Below, piece after piece: positions 5,361 to 10,964 of a stretch of DNA of 64,000 nucleotides. Source of the stretch: Paraglaciecola sp. (GTDB lineage: Bacteria > Pseudomonadota > Gammaproteobacteria > Enterobacterales > Alteromonadaceae); NCBI RefSeq assembly GCF_030730205.1, contig NZ_JANQVQ010000331.1:1-64000 (forward strand), read 5' to 3'. Each line of letters starts with the position of its first letter. The first letter of the stretch is position 1. Below the pieces are notes generated by a model that was given only the letters and a program-made list of their open reading frames with translations, ran no database searches and had not been told where the DNA came from. The position numbers and the translations under genes were made by a program.

Positions 5361-6551
5361 TTAGTGCAAAATAGAGTTTTCATTGAATTCAGTTAAAAAA
5401 CGTAATTTACTTTCATAACGTCTCTCGTCATTGACACTAACGGAAAAATCTTTGGCCAATTGCAAATAGTGCTCAGTTAGGTCCAACTCGCCTAATTCAA
5501 AATAGACTTGCGCCAAACCAAAATACACTTCATGTCTTTTTCGATCTAATGCCATCGCGTCTTTGAAATAACTTATCGCCTCTTTGTAATCGCCAGATTC
5601 AAGTTTTTGTTCGCCTAAGTTAATGTAAAAATAGGGATTGCTCGCGCGTTTTTCCTCTACCTTAGCGAGTATCCTATTGGCTTGCTCTTCTCGCCCAGAA
5701 GAAAGATACAAATAAGACAGATTTTCCCAGGCCGTTAAATTATCTGGATTAAGATCTAGGGCATACCGATAGCTCTCTTCTGCTTGTTTTATATAGCCTT
5801 TTAAACGGTATAAAAAGCCCAGATTACCAGCGGTCGACTCAAATGATTCATCCACTAACAAGGCTTTGCGAAAATAGGCATACGCTTCGTCTAATCGGTC
5901 ATTAATCAGAGCATCAGCGCCTTTATTATTGTAAAACATCGCCATTACAGTGGACTTACTAAGCAGACGTTTTTTAAAATGATTACGAGAAGAAAGTGGG
6001 TCAAAGTCCACTAAGAAACCTTTGTTAACAAAAGGATGTTCCGTTTGCGCTGACTTCGGCGATAGACGCAAATTTATGTGTCCATTGAGCATGCTAAATC
6101 CTTGGTTGCGCGTCCAGTATTCAGGAATATCGATATCTTGAAACTGCGCCTTAAACCCCGCCTCTTCTGCCAAAGCATAAGTCATGATGGATAAAGAAAG
6201 GCAGTTTGCCGCTTTTAATGTAAATGTATCATTGGCCACAGTGTTTGCGTTACCGTCGTACAGAATGTTAAAGTCGGCACGGTCAAATAAGGCGTAAACT
6301 AAGGCCTTTATCTGCTCTAAAGGCTCTTGTTGCTCACTGGTAGCACGTTTAACAAAAGCCTTCGCTTCCTCTTCTAATTTAAAAATATCTGTTTCACTTT
6401 CAATGATAATTTGATCTGAATGAGTGAAGCCTTCATCATACAAAATAGTATGCACATCAAGCGGGGCACGACTGACAGATTGACAAGCGGTTAACAAAAC
6501 AGCAAAGCTAAAATGTATCAAATAGAAACTAGCGCGGTTAATAGACGCCAT
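5361..6551 (-). CDS. Lipoprotein with transglutaminase-like domain and TPR repeats (copy 1)
   Basis: The 396-residue protein begins with a lipoprotein signal ending in LTAC, so Cys23 would be lipidated. Residues about 75-185 look like a papain/transglutaminase-type fold: Cys117 in AANCLSLS, His158 in NGHINL and Asp182 in VDFDP would form a triad. From about residue 205 to 370 there are TPR-type helical repeats (NNKGADAL, GNLGFLYRLKGY, ENLSYLYLSSGR, FGLAQVYFELGE). The next gene upstream is a clear paralogue in the same orientation, separated by 83 bases. Substrate and partners are unknown. The triad assignment rests on pattern only. Confidence 0.75.
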   Translation of the reverse strand: MASINRASFYLIHFSFAVLLTACQSVSRAPLDVHTILYDEGFTHSDQIIIESETDIFKLEEEAKAFVKRATSEQQEPLEQIKALVYALFDRADFNILYDGNANTVANDTFTLKAANCLSLSIMTYALAEEAGFKAQFQDIDIPEYWTRNQGFSMLNGHINLRLSPKSAQTEHPFVNKGFLVDFDPLSSRNHFKKRLLSKSTVMAMFYNNKGADALINDRLDEAYAYFRKALLVDESFESTAGNLGFLYRLKGYIKQAEESYRYALDLNPDNLTAWENLSYLYLSSGREEQANRILAKVEEKRASNPYFYINLGEQKLESGDYKEAISYFKDAMALDRKRHEVYFGLAQVYFELGELDLTEHYLQLAKDFSVSVNDERRYESKLRFLTEFNENSILH

Positions 6552-6634: not shown

Positions 6635-7804
6635 TCAACTTGTTGTTGCTGACAACATCTGACGGCGTAAAAACTCAATTTTAGCAGCGTAGACATTGGC
6701 CTCTTCCTGATAACGTGACTTTTGATAAGCTAATTGTAAAAAGTGCTCACTGCGCTTCAACTTACCCAATTCGTAATATGTTTTGGCTAAACCAAAAAAT
6801 ACTTCGTGCAAAGTTTTGTCGAGGGACAGGGCTTTTCTATAGTGGTCAAGGGCAGAATCCCAATTGTGTTTTTCAAACGCGGTCTCTCCCAAACTTAGGT
6901 GGTAGAAAGGATTATTTGCACGCTTGCGCTCTAAGCGAGTGAGTATTTCGGCTGCTTTTTCTTCTTGTTGAACATGTTTATACAATAAAGCCAAATTTTG
7001 CCAGACAGTTAAATTGTTCGTATCAATATGTAAAGCTAATTGATAAGCCTTTTCAGCCTTTGCATAGTGACCGTTCAGACGATATAAGTAGCCTAAATTT
7101 GCCAGTAAATGCGCCTGTCTGGGATCAGCCAAGTAACTCGCGCGAAAATAAGCATAAGCCCTTAAATCGTCTCGGCGCAGCAGCGCATCACTGCCCTTAT
7201 TGTTGTAAAACAGCGCGATCACCTGCGACTCACTGAGCAAGCTTCGTTTATCGTGCTTTCGCGTTGCTTGCGCATCAAAATCCACTTCAAATCCTTGCCT
7301 AGTTAACTCCACATAGGCTCTGTTTTGTTTGGGCACTATTTGCAAATTGATGTGTGAGTTAAGAATACGCTGCCCCTCTCTGCGGGTCCAATATTCAGGA
7401 ATTTCAACATGCTGAAAGCGCGCACCAAAGCCAAGGTGACGAGCCAAGGCGTAGGTCATGATGGACAAAGATAGACAATTTGCCGCCCTATTTTCAAAAG
7501 TCGTCTGGGCTACAGTATTGGCATCAGCTCGATACAACAGATTAAAATCAGAATGATCGAAAATAGCGCGAACCATCGATTTAATCTGCTCTTGAGGGTT
7601 AGGAATATTTTTTACAGATTGTTTTGCAAATCCTTTTGCATCATCAGCTAGAAAAAAAATCTCATCGGGACTTTCAATTTTTATTTTTTCAAAATGTAAA
7701 TATTTGTCATCGACTAACACAACGCTCGCTTGTGTAAATTGAGGGCTTATTGAAGCGCACCCAGACAGCAAGATAAGTAATAAAACACATAGCGCTATAC
7801 GCAT
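6635..7804 (-). CDS. Lipoprotein with transglutaminase-like domain and TPR repeats (copy 2)
   Basis: The 389-residue paralogue of the downstream gene begins with a lipoprotein signal ending in LSGC (Cys16). The putative triad is kept: Cys110 in AANCLSLS, His151 in NSHINL, Asp175 in VDFDA. TPR repeats fill about residues 195-365. Both copies share the NTVA, IPEYWTR and FYNNKGSDALL/FYNNKGADALI segments, so they come from a tandem duplication followed by clear divergence. It is the first gene of the pair, facing away from mtnN across a 142-base spacer. Confidence 0.75.
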   Translation of the reverse strand: MRIALCVLLLILLSGCASISPQFTQASVVLVDDKYLHFEKIKIESPDEIFFLADDAKGFAKQSVKNIPNPQEQIKSMVRAIFDHSDFNLLYRADANTVAQTTFENRAANCLSLSIMTYALARHLGFGARFQHVEIPEYWTRREGQRILNSHINLQIVPKQNRAYVELTRQGFEVDFDAQATRKHDKRSLLSESQVIALFYNNKGSDALLRRDDLRAYAYFRASYLADPRQAHLLANLGYLYRLNGHYAKAEKAYQLALHIDTNNLTVWQNLALLYKHVQQEEKAAEILTRLERKRANNPFYHLSLGETAFEKHNWDSALDHYRKALSLDKTLHEVFFGLAKTYYELGKLKRSEHFLQLAYQKSRYQEEANVYAAKIEFLRRQMLSATTS

Positions 7805-7946: not shown

Positions 7947-8651
7947 ATGAAAATTGCAATTCTTGGTGCGATGGATGAAGAAATCAGTCTTTTACGCGCT
8001 TCACTAACAAACGTTACTGAAAGAAAAATAGCCCATTTGACGGTATATTTTGGTGAGCTTAACAATACCGAAGTTGCCTTAGTAAAATGCGGAATTGGAA
8101 AAGTTGCGGCTGCGGTTTCGACCACCTTATTGGTGATGAACTTTCAACCAGACTATGTGATTAATACTGGCTCTGCTGGCGGCTTTTCCAAAGAGAGAGT
8201 GATTGGAGATATCGTTATTGCAACTGAGTTACGCCACTATGATGCGGATCTGACTTTTTTTGGTTACGAGTTAGGACAATGTGCGGGCATGCCTGCTAAA
8301 TATGAATGTGACACAAAGCTAATTACTTGTGCACAACAAGCAATGCAAAGCTTAGATCACATTGGATATGAATTGGGTTTGATCTGTTCAGGCGATTCTT
8401 TTGTGGGCAGCGATGAAGGAGCCGAGAAAATTCGACAAAATTTCCCCTCTATTAGTGCCGTGGAAATGGAAGGTGTGGCAATTGGCCAAACTTGTCATTT
8501 GTTGAATGTACCTTTTCTTGTCATTCGCTCATTGTCTGATATTGCAGGTGTCACCTCAACGGTGTCTTTCCAAACCTATTTGGAAACTGCCGGCAAACAC
8601 TCAGCACAAATTGTAATGCAAACCCTTGCTTTACTGGCTAAGCAAAACTAA
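7947..8651 (+). CDS. mtnN: 5'-methylthioadenosine/S-adenosylhomocysteine nucleosidase
   Basis: The enzyme hydrolyses MTA and SAH to adenine and the thio-ribose, serving methionine salvage and removing SAH. At 234 residues it is full length. The catalytic acid near residue 12 (GAMDEEISLL), the NTGSAGG segment, the VEMEGVAIGQ motif and RSLSDIAG with the catalytic Asp are all present. It heads a run with the CbiB-like gene and btuF; mtnN next to btuF is also known in enterobacteria. Confidence 0.95.
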   Translation: MKIAILGAMDEEISLLRASLTNVTERKIAHLTVYFGELNNTEVALVKCGIGKVAAAVSTTLLVMNFQPDYVINTGSAGGFSKERVIGDIVIATELRHYDADLTFFGYELGQCAGMPAKYECDTKLITCAQQAMQSLDHIGYELGLICSGDSFVGSDEGAEKIRQNFPSISAVEMEGVAIGQTCHLLNVPFLVIRSLSDIAGVTSTVSFQTYLETAGKHSAQIVMQTLALLAKQN

Positions 8652-8667
8652 TAGAATGATATCTTGA

Positions 8668-9627
8668 TTGAATTTATTAATTGATCAATTTGGCAGCATT
8701 AACTTGCTGCCTTTGTATTCCGTTTTAATTGTGGTTTTAATAGAAAGACACCTTAGATTAGCGGATAAATTTCACCCCTTAACCTTTGCTAAACTTGTTG
8801 CTTTGCGTGTAGCATATAAAGTTCATAGTAAAAATCCTGGCACACCCTTACAGCAGATGATAGCAGGCACACTAGCTCCTATTGTGCTACTTTCCCCATT
8901 TATGCTTTTGCTAGCTGTACTCATTTATTTATCAGAATACCCCATCTTTTTTGATAGCTTATTACTACTGCTTGCGCTGAGATTTACGCCGGTAATGATG
9001 AGGATTAAAAAAGTTGAACGCTGCCTAAAAACCAACAAGAAAACCTTGGCCAAACAACATTTACAGACATTGGTGTTAAGAGAAACCGCACAACTCTCTC
9101 CCTTTGGCATAGCAAAAGCAGCCATTGAATCCTTAATGTTGAGATTTGCAGCGCAATTTTGCTGCGTCATTGTTTTATATTTAGTTGGAGGCGGCTTGTT
9201 GGCACTCAGTTATCGCCTGCTATTTGAGTTTTCACAATGCTGGCATACTAAACAAGGTAGTTATGCTTATTTTGGCAAACCCATTCGCTTGTGCTTGGCC
9301 CTTATTCTATGGCTACCAGCCAGAATTACAGCCCTGTGCTTCATTATAGGGCAAAACATTTCACAAGGGCTCAGAGCGCTCACTCAAGGCAAAAACCTAT
9401 TATGCAGCCGTTATTTTGTTTTAAGCTTGCAAGGCGCCGCCCTAGGTGTTGAACTCGGTGGTCCAGTATTTTATGGTGATAATAAAGTTCGATTAGCAAA
9501 ATGTGGAGGCACACGCCCCATCGCCTTAGAGGATATAAACAGAGCACTTAATGGGATTAAAAAAGCCCAATGGGTTTTTCTGACCTTGTGTTTTATCGCT
9601 TGCCTGTTACTCAATATAGGGACTTAG
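8668..9627 (+). CDS. CbiB/CobD-like membrane protein lacking the usual catalytic motifs
   Basis: The 319-residue polytopic membrane protein aligns along its length with CbiB/CobD, the adenosylcobinamide-phosphate synthase of cobalamin assembly: HPLTFAKL near the start, SPFGIAKAAIES in the middle, LPARITAL, and a C-terminal LGVELGGPVFYG with a following DINRAL segment. As I recall the active family, it carries ENTxDG, NTLDSM and a D-D-x-x-NYxPAR motif. None of these is visible here: the matching positions read ESLMLRF, LFEFSQC and ILWLPAR. It is thus probably not a working synthase. The start is a TTG 16 bases after mtnN with no strong ribosome site. Next to btuF it may have a role in corrinoid salvage, but this is unproven. 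Confidence 0.72.
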   Translation: MNLLIDQFGSINLLPLYSVLIVVLIERHLRLADKFHPLTFAKLVALRVAYKVHSKNPGTPLQQMIAGTLAPIVLLSPFMLLLAVLIYLSEYPIFFDSLLLLLALRFTPVMMRIKKVERCLKTNKKTLAKQHLQTLVLRETAQLSPFGIAKAAIESLMLRFAAQFCCVIVLYLVGGGLLALSYRLLFEFSQCWHTKQGSYAYFGKPIRLCLALILWLPARITALCFIIGQNISQGLRALTQGKNLLCSRYFVLSLQGAALGVELGGPVFYGDNKVRLAKCGGTRPIALEDINRALNGIKKAQWVFLTLCFIACLLLNIGT

Positions 9628-9632
9628 CCGCA

Positions 9633-10454
9633 TTGTTTACTATTAAAAAGAATGCTTTGTCATTCATTATCATCATAAGTGCCATGTTTCACTTTTCTGT
9701 ACAAGCTACTGCGCAACGAATAATAAGTTTAGCGCCACATACTACTGAATTAATTTACGCACTTGGCATGGGAGAGCATCTCGTTGGGGTGAGTGATTAC
9801 AGTAATTATCCGCCTCAAGCAGAACAACTCCCCTCTGTAGCAAACTACAATGGCCTCGACTTTGAAGCCATTATGCAACTTAAGCCTGATTTAATAGTGG
9901 CTTGGCAAGGCGGTAATAAGCCTCAAGATATTGCCCGCTTGAGTTCGTTAGGCTTTAGCGTTTATTCATCAGCGCCTCAATCCCCAGATGATATCAGTAA
10001 AGACATTGTGAAATTAGGTGAAACACTGGGACGGAGTGAGCAGGCTTTAATATTAGCTAATCAGTTTCAGGCTGAACTCGACCAGTTAAAGCAGCGTTAT
10101 CTAACGCAAGCTAAAATCCGAGTTTTTTACTACATGTGGACCGCACCATTGATGACAATAGGAGCTGACGCTTGGGCGACTAAGTTACTTGATATTTGCG
10201 GAGCGACTCAAATATTTAACGATTCCATGGTTGCCTATCCTGAAGTCAGTAAAGAACAGGTCATATCACGTCAGCCCACCCTGTTAATTGCCGCGATGAA
10301 AATTAAAGAGTTAGATGCCCAACAATTCTGGCAGCCAACACATTCGTTGTTAAAGGCACCTGTTGTTGTGGTTAATCCTGATGAACTTCATCGATTTACG
10401 CCACGATTAATCAATGGGTTAACTTCCATGTGCAAACAAATAAATGGTTTCTAA
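9633..10454 (+). CDS. btuF: Cobalamin-binding periplasmic protein BtuF-like
   Basis: The protein would bind vitamin B12 in the periplasm and deliver it to the BtuCD importer, which is not in this window. I choose the TTG at 9633, 5 bases after the previous stop, giving a 273-residue protein with a signal peptide (hydrophobic LSFIIIISAMF, cleavage near VQATAQ). An in-frame ATG at 9570 would overlap the previous gene by 58 bases. The mature part starts with RIISLAPHTTELIYALG, typical of BtuF, followed by GVSDYSNYP and LKPDLIVAW segments. Confidence 0.88.
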   Translation: MFTIKKNALSFIIIISAMFHFSVQATAQRIISLAPHTTELIYALGMGEHLVGVSDYSNYPPQAEQLPSVANYNGLDFEAIMQLKPDLIVAWQGGNKPQDIARLSSLGFSVYSSAPQSPDDISKDIVKLGETLGRSEQALILANQFQAELDQLKQRYLTQAKIRVFYYMWTAPLMTIGADAWATKLLDICGATQIFNDSMVAYPEVSKEQVISRQPTLLIAAMKIKELDAQQFWQPTHSLLKAPVVVVNPDELHRFTPRLINGLTSMCKQINGF

Positions 10455-10535: not shown

Positions 10536-10964
10536 ATGCGAGGTAATCTCAGTTATCATGATAAGTTTGGCCAATACTCTATGTGGATCGAAGGTAAAAT
10601 TTTGTTTTGTATTGTCCATGGCGCAATTGGCGAAACCGTCGCGAAACATTTTCATCTTCATTTTTGTCAATTGGCCGATAAATTAGCGCCAAACCCTTGG
10701 GCCTATTGTGCCGACTTGTCCGCCTGTGAAGGCTATACTCCAGAAGCGGCAAATCGAGTAAAAGCATCGCACCAATATGGTATTAGTCGGGGTTGCATCG
10801 TTGATGCTTACCAAATTTCATCGCCATTACTGATAAATCAGTCACAGAAATTCCGCGAGGCACTTGGCCTAGATACGCATATTAATGATAGGATCTTCAG
10901 TAATGATAAAAGCTGCATAGCGTTTCTTACTGCTGAGCTGTCAAAAACCCGAGATCATATTTGA
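10536..10964 (+). CDS. Small protein of unknown function
   Basis: The 142-residue soluble protein has a strong ribosome binding site (GGAGG, 6 bases before the ATG). It is moderately rich in Cys and His and has no signal peptide. Its overall pattern (an acting strand, a helix with HFHLHF, then WAYCADLSACEGYTPEA) recalls STAS/SpoIIAA-like proteins, but I cannot assign a family. Its TGA overlaps a TTG that may start the next gene, so they are likely cotranscribed. Confidence 0.6.
   Translation: MRGNLSYHDKFGQYSMWIEGKILFCIVHGAIGETVAKHFHLHFCQLADKLAPNPWAYCADLSACEGYTPEAANRVKASHQYGISRGCIVDAYQISSPLLINQSQKFREALGLDTHINDRIFSNDKSCIAFLTAELSKTRDHI

Follow-up and report, generated by a model that had tools for sequence, protein, structure and literature searches.

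The locus

The window (the whole stretch of 64,000 nucleotides analysed here) carries a CbiB-type gene, here called X, between mtnN (pfs) and a btuF-like ORF (Table 1). The end of mtnN is 16 nt from the start of X, and the 3' end of X is overlapped by the long btuF-like ORF, whose actual start probably lies further inside. X matched the Pfam family PF03186 (CobD_Cbib) at 86.3 bits (cut-off 34.4) and was the only PF03186 match in the window's own 5.18-Mb genome. Together with the 319-aa ORF, this match bears out the intact, full-length gene with overall CbiB architecture that the first-pass annotation had described. The best NCBIfam profile was NF006476/PRK08878 (138.4 bits, below the curated cut-off of 322), followed by PRK07630 (NF005792, ‘CobD/CbiB family protein’) at 57.7 bits, far below its cut-off of 291. 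A second, weak NF006476 match in the same genome may be AmpE. The nearest named relative was Paraglaciecola hydrolytica (54% identity).

Two clearly related adjacent genes lie upstream of mtnN on the opposite strand (window positions 5361-6551 and 6635-7804, minus strand); judged by eye, both have tetratricopeptide-like repeats and lipoprotein-like starts. Downstream, a 142-aa protein without a Pfam or NCBIfam match is encoded between btuF and a DUF2721 protein (10536-10964, plus strand).

Table 1. Features of the X locus, in window positions; residue numbers are those of X.
Feature	Position	Strand	Basis
mtnN (pfs), MTA/SAH nucleosidase, stable upstream neighbour of X	7947..8651	+	TIGR01704, 272 bits (cut-off 73.8)
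X, motif-less CbiB-type membrane protein, 319 aa	8668..9627	+	Intact ORF, TTG start
R138, common to X (101/103) and canonical CbiB (25/25)	9079..9081	+	
X signature LSxxGxxKAxxE, residues 143-154	9094..9129	+	G147 103/103, K150 102/103, E154 101/103, S144 95/103
Site of lost ENxxD (LRFAA, residues 158-162)	9139..9153	+	Alignment
Site of lost NTLD (FEFS, residues 186-189)	9223..9234	+	Alignment
Site of lost DD pair (L210-A211)	9295..9300	+	Alignment
PAR of motif 3, kept (residues 217-219)	9316..9324	+	Alignment
LGGPVFY loop, kept (G265 in 103/103 and Y269 in 96/103 X rows)	9454..9474	+	Alignment of 103 X rows
btuF-like B12-binding protein ORF	9570..10454	+	PF01497, 95.8 bits; NF002894, 217.6 bits (below cut-off of 234)

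Synthase residues

Eight marker residues (E, N and D of ENxxD; N, T and D of NTxD; both D of DD) were read off 191 aligned non-redundant CbiB-like proteins, counted after removal of copies identical over residues 41-200. At the three sites X of the window reads LRA, FES and LA and has none of the eight. Only the C-terminal LGGPxxY loop and the PAR of motif 3 remain. The earlier statement that all catalytic motifs are lost is slightly too strong, given this PAR and the shared scaffold residues H36, P37, R138, E154, G265 and Y269, which are kept. All eight markers were present in 58 canonical homologues, 35 of them from Pseudomonas. Annotated CbiB proteins of Leptospira and Marinobacter likewise had 8/8, and CobD/CbiB proteins of Sphingobium and Sphingomonas 7/8. 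With the CbiB equivalog profile TIGR00380, X scored 39.7 bits against a cut-off of 165.9, a cut-off that 8 of 18 canonical copies also missed somewhat.

Motifs at shifted positions, named beforehand in the first-pass annotation as evidence that would count against it, were sought and none was found: the alignments are co-linear, and the order of helices in AF2 models is alike in X and in a Pseudomonas protein. A decaying pseudogene was ruled out by the intact ORFs, the near-invariant columns of X and low dN/dS.

Signature, tree and predicted fold

A signature was derived from 103 X rows (what remained of 148 after redundancy reduction) set against 25 canonical rows. X has its own pattern, R138...LSxxGxxKAxxE154, and X of the window carries R138, LSxxGxxKAxxE, G265 and Y269. 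Residues S144, G147 and K150 differ from the canonical majority (D in 11, T in 10 and S in 3 rows at position 144; D in 7, Q in 6 and E in 4 at 147; R in 21 at 150), as do the hydrophobic residues V52, L132 and A179. The canonical motif invariants E, D, N, T, D, D and D were each kept in 0-3 of the 103 X rows (the N of ENxxD was too variable in the 25 canonical rows to be listed), and the five acidic residues among them in 0-1 each. In a quick tree of 129 rows, a branch with support 100 parted the canonical copies from all other rows. The X rows required two label changes in this tree, in which long branches weaken the deep forks; X may have a single origin.

The AF2 model of X (mean pLDDT 92.6, pTM 0.90; alignment of 40 X and 4 canonical rows) is confident and mostly helical, with short strands before the last helix. 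That of a Pseudomonas CbiB (87.9 and 0.87; 13 canonical and 8 X rows) has the same order of helices, save an extra short first helix in X; the two models are not fully independent, each alignment having held some rows of the other kind. A Foldseek search of solved structures with the X model returned 102 matches with E <= 10 and none with E <= 0.001 (best E 1.1). A search of solved structures by sequence gave no significant match (best E 0.5).

Linkage to mtnN and downstream neighbours

Homologues were gathered by CbiB-type similarity only and not via mtnN, so the link to mtnN was not selected for. mtnN lay directly upstream on the same strand for 129 of the 191 proteins, and these had 0 (n = 123) or 1 (n = 6) of the eight motif residues; none of the 58 copies with 8/8 had mtnN directly upstream. 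The remaining four of the 191 belong to neither class: L046, and the AmpE-type L048 and L050 (by best profile) and L051 (by tree). Counting the AmpE-type proteins, 133 copies are motif-less, and 129 of them directly follow mtnN. The median distance from mtnN to X is 8 nt, and 116 of the 129 distances fall within +/-30 nt. X of the window, which directly follows mtnN on its strand, belongs to this mtnN-linked subfamily, which extends over 13 family-level groups; 19 genomes of the sample hold X and a canonical CbiB together. These classes and the tree support the earlier view of an intact non-synthase paralogue, apart from canonical CbiB and selected for another role.

Sixty relatives, including the window's own genome, were also compared. 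A motif-less copy not of AmpE type was found in 44, beside mtnN in 43 of them, the other being L046. The 17 relatives without mtnN-linked X had MtnN over the cut-off in 9 and not in 8. L046 (4998-5924, genome G057) encodes a very divergent CbiB-like protein with 0/8 residues; btuF follows this gene after 3 nt, mtnN is not adjacent, and a canonical CbiB copy is present in the same genome.

Different genes occur downstream of X, among them btuF and those for rhodanese and Smr proteins. btuF followed X in at least 60 of the 129 mtnN-linked cases, a lower bound, as btuF was sought by phmmer with the BtuF of the window only. The first-pass annotation had X kept between mtnN and btuF and proposed as a check whether the proteins always lie next to btuF; mtnN is indeed the stable partner, whereas btuF is not constant and is absent beside X in 15 B12-marker-less genomes described below. 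A rhodanese-domain protein instead of btuF follows X at L069:6060-6449 and L054:4532-4954, in two different genera within the window's family. At L242:2660-3340 and L245:2696-3310, in f3 genomes (defined below) without B12 markers, the gene after mtnN-X encodes an Smr-domain protein. mtnN and btuF adjoin without X in E. coli K-12 (overlapping) and in G026 and G039 (close), so X is dispensable for the retention of both genes.

Retention of X and B12 use

MetH was found in 53 of the 60 relatives, and a BtuF-like protein (E <= 0.001) and a cobalamin riboswitch in 52 each. Overall, X is correlated with B12 use: 42 of the 43 X carriers have all three markers, and the exception, G037, has none of them. 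Its family-level group, f3, was represented by 20 genomes, 93-99% complete. This set was drawn from the genomes listed with NF006476 matches, 77 genomes without a match being left out, and the presence of X in 19 of the 20 (all but G064) is therefore not an unbiased frequency.

The epoxyqueuosine reductase QueG (TIGR00276) needs cobalamin. Matches to QueG, to the B12-binding domain PF02310 and to the cobalamin riboswitch RF00174 occurred in the same four f3 genomes (G084, G118, G133 and G319), and the other 16 of the 20 had none of the three. X was present in 15 of these 16 and is thus not confined to genomes with signs of corrinoid use. All 19 f3 copies have mtnN directly upstream, 0-1/8 motif residues and intact R138, E154, G265 and Y269. 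The gene after X was btuF in all four B12-positive genomes and in 0 of the remaining 15 (Fisher p = 2.6e-4, without correction for shared descent). No btuF was found genome-wide in G037; in the other B12-marker-less f3 genomes it was sought beside X only. The simplest reading is that mtnN-X-btuF, probably the ancestral order, was reduced in f3 by loss of B12 use and of the adjoining btuF, while X stayed with mtnN.

For the three closest f3 pairs dN/dS was 0.07, 0.05 and 0.04 for X and 0.04, 0.04 and 0.06 for mtnN; these pairs come from three genomes, all without B12 markers, the dS of X is high (0.8-1.9) and wider pairs were mostly saturated. X is under purifying selection in f3 genomes without B12 markers.

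A cobalamin riboswitch was located within 12 kb of 0/43 X loci and 13/18 canonical loci, counts in which 26 X loci and 2 canonical loci are on riboswitch-free contigs and the window's genus contributes 10 of the 18 canonical loci. The 12-kb limit was chosen after a first look (some canonical distances are about 10 kb), and the contrast does not depend on it, because no X locus has a riboswitch closer than 97 kb on its contig. The first-pass proposal of corrinoid handling at the membrane is not supported, given these riboswitch counts and the 15 B12-marker-less genomes that keep X.

MetH, the BtuF-like protein and the cobalamin riboswitch are all missing in five of the 60 relatives (G030, G037, G041, G056 and G058). 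With the 16 of 20 f3 genomes that lack markers, this makes loss of B12 use look frequent in this order.

Comparison with named systems

NF006476/PRK08878, ‘cobalamin biosynthesis family protein’, covers the same subfamily as X. It was matched by all 31 X proteins scanned, and a member from the family-level group f21 scored 551 bits. Among the matches listed, at least 198 genomes of the order had a match (106 have linked X in the sample), and 20 of 295 order genomes, all f21, exceeded the curated cut-off. The B12 role conveyed by this name finds no support in the genome comparison for X, and the name is misleading for the X subfamily.

CbiB/CobD (TIGR00380) shares with X the Pfam family, length, order of helices and R138, E154, G265 and Y269; X differs in having no ENxxD, NTLD or DD, in being linked to mtnN and in lying far from cobalamin riboswitches. 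AmpE (NF008219) resembles X as a motif-less CbiB-type protein encoded with the gene of a cytosolic hydrolase (ampD, with overlapping genes in E. coli). It differs in forming a separate tree branch, with long branches, and in not keeping R138, E154, G265 and Y269 in the alignment; that X is AmpE was ruled out by the NF008219 score (19.5 versus 238 bits) and by the tree. E. coli AmpE is encoded at L270:1782-2636, overlapping ampD, and AmpE-type proteins make up a second motif-less CbiB-type branch.

The pfs-cobD-btuF-yeiH operon of Vibrio (PMC11837498, a 2025 paper on Vibrio campbellii) has the gene order of L221, the single f21 locus checked (mtnN, X, btuF and a PF03458, YadS-type, protein). 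Gene order, genome layout and this paper suggest that f21 is Vibrionaceae. The available part of PMC11837498 names the second gene cobD and reads it as a functional synthase that enables remodelling. X rows of f21 (n = 20), in contrast, have 0-1/8 synthase motif residues, with btuF next in 18 of 20. A canonical copy with 8/8 residues (L214) occurs besides X in one f21 genome, G316. The name cobD, as used in that part of the paper, is unsupported for this gene, and the growth and AI-2 measurements given there are unaffected. A synthase for remodelling was ruled out by the missing residues and by retention of X without B12 markers. No functional study of an X gene appeared among the papers listed in literature searches.

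Plasmids were searched by tblastn with an f21 X, and 19 records matched, 17 of them annotated there as cbiB or cobD and 2 without an annotated feature at that place. Four of these matches were inspected and had 7-8/8 motif residues. X of the window had no match in plasmids.

Possible roles of X

X is a broadly conserved, misnamed paralogue of CbiB whose stable partner is mtnN. MtnN is cytosolic and clears MTA, SAH and 5'-deoxyadenosine; 5-methylthioribose (MTR) and 5-deoxyribose are both among its products. We tentatively favour a role for X as a membrane partner of MtnN, neither a synthase nor dedicated to B12, in the handling of SAM by-products; it is gene order that points to the partnership. 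X is a paralogous CbiB-type protein of the inner membrane, with the acidic/Asn half of the conserved synthase site gone and the shared scaffold kept. It would work with the nucleosidase encoded just upstream, putatively in physical contact, and would bind a small polar ligand at the membrane. Such a ligand, handled without ATP or metal chemistry, fits half a CbiB-type site and the near-invariant S144, G147 and K150. It would probably be a substrate (MTA, SAH or 5'-deoxyadenosine) or a product (5-methylthioribose, S-ribosylhomocysteine or 5-deoxyribose) of MtnN, which X may help to dispose of or channel.

Excretion by E. coli is described in the available portions of the literature for MTR (PMC10986504, PMC6302742 and PMC3228920) and for 5-deoxyribose (PMC10986504). 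As far as these portions go, E. coli excretes MTR although it has no X, so MTR has at least one other exit route and X is not needed there. AmpE behind AmpD may be regarded as a parallel to X with MtnN, not as proof. It is unlikely, though conceivable, that motif-less CbiB-type proteins became, on at least two occasions, the membrane partner of a cytosolic hydrolase (AmpE for AmpD, X for MtnN) and that X acts as a membrane exit or sensor for SAM-derived 5-deoxypentose or nucleoside by-products (5-methylthioribose, 5-deoxyribose and S-ribosylhomocysteine).

The partnership with MtnN was weighed against other readings. X could have a general or unrelated function at the membrane and simply be co-transcribed with mtnN, and the variable gene after X (a sign that gene order alone may mislead) and the 9 of 17 relatives that keep MtnN without linked X speak for this. 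We consider it unlikely, as mtnN-X is kept across the 13 family-level groups while the downstream gene changes, and as 43 of the 44 relatives with a motif-less non-AmpE copy have it beside mtnN. An enzyme that is still active and links other substrates by way of R138, K150, E154 and Y269 would account for a polar signature conserved almost as tightly as the motifs of canonical CbiB and for the purifying selection; it would also require a new site for the ATP/Mg-dependent ligase step, the acidic motif residues being kept in 0-1 of 103 rows, and the neighbours suggest no substrate except that of MtnN. Such an enzyme is rather improbable.

An aid to BtuF/BtuCD corrinoid uptake, or a tuner of remodelling at the membrane, is suggested by the CbiB ancestry of X, by the mtnN-X-btuF order in the window, by the presence of btuF after X in at least 60 of the 129 loci, by the MetH, BtuF-like protein and riboswitch of 42 of the 43 carriers, and by L046, which adjoins btuF without mtnN. 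Against these stand the 15 of 16 genomes that have X with none of the three B12 markers and no btuF found beside it, the purifying selection on X among such genomes, the X loci with no cobalamin riboswitch nearby (0/43), and the mtnN-btuF pair that persists without X in E. coli. We regard this role as quite improbable. That X is a true if unusual AdoCbi-P synthase is scarcely credible: the PF03186 match and the name cobD in the available part of PMC11837498 agree with it, and it is opposed by the 0/8 residues, the canonical copy alongside in 19 genomes and retention where B12 markers are missing.

Implications

X should be left out of B12 pathway reconstructions of these bacteria, because the defining synthase residues are missing and the genome comparison parts X from B12. 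Its operon is no ground for claiming a coupling of AI-2 synthesis to B12 acquisition, and the published Vibrio argument on B12 and AI-2, in the part of PMC11837498 that is available, rests in part on a wrong gene name. Should X prove to be an exit or sensor for SAM-derived by-products, it would be a new kind of transporter or sensor fold without a solved relative. A widely kept membrane protein beside the central nucleosidase for SAM by-products poses a testable question, that of its ligand.
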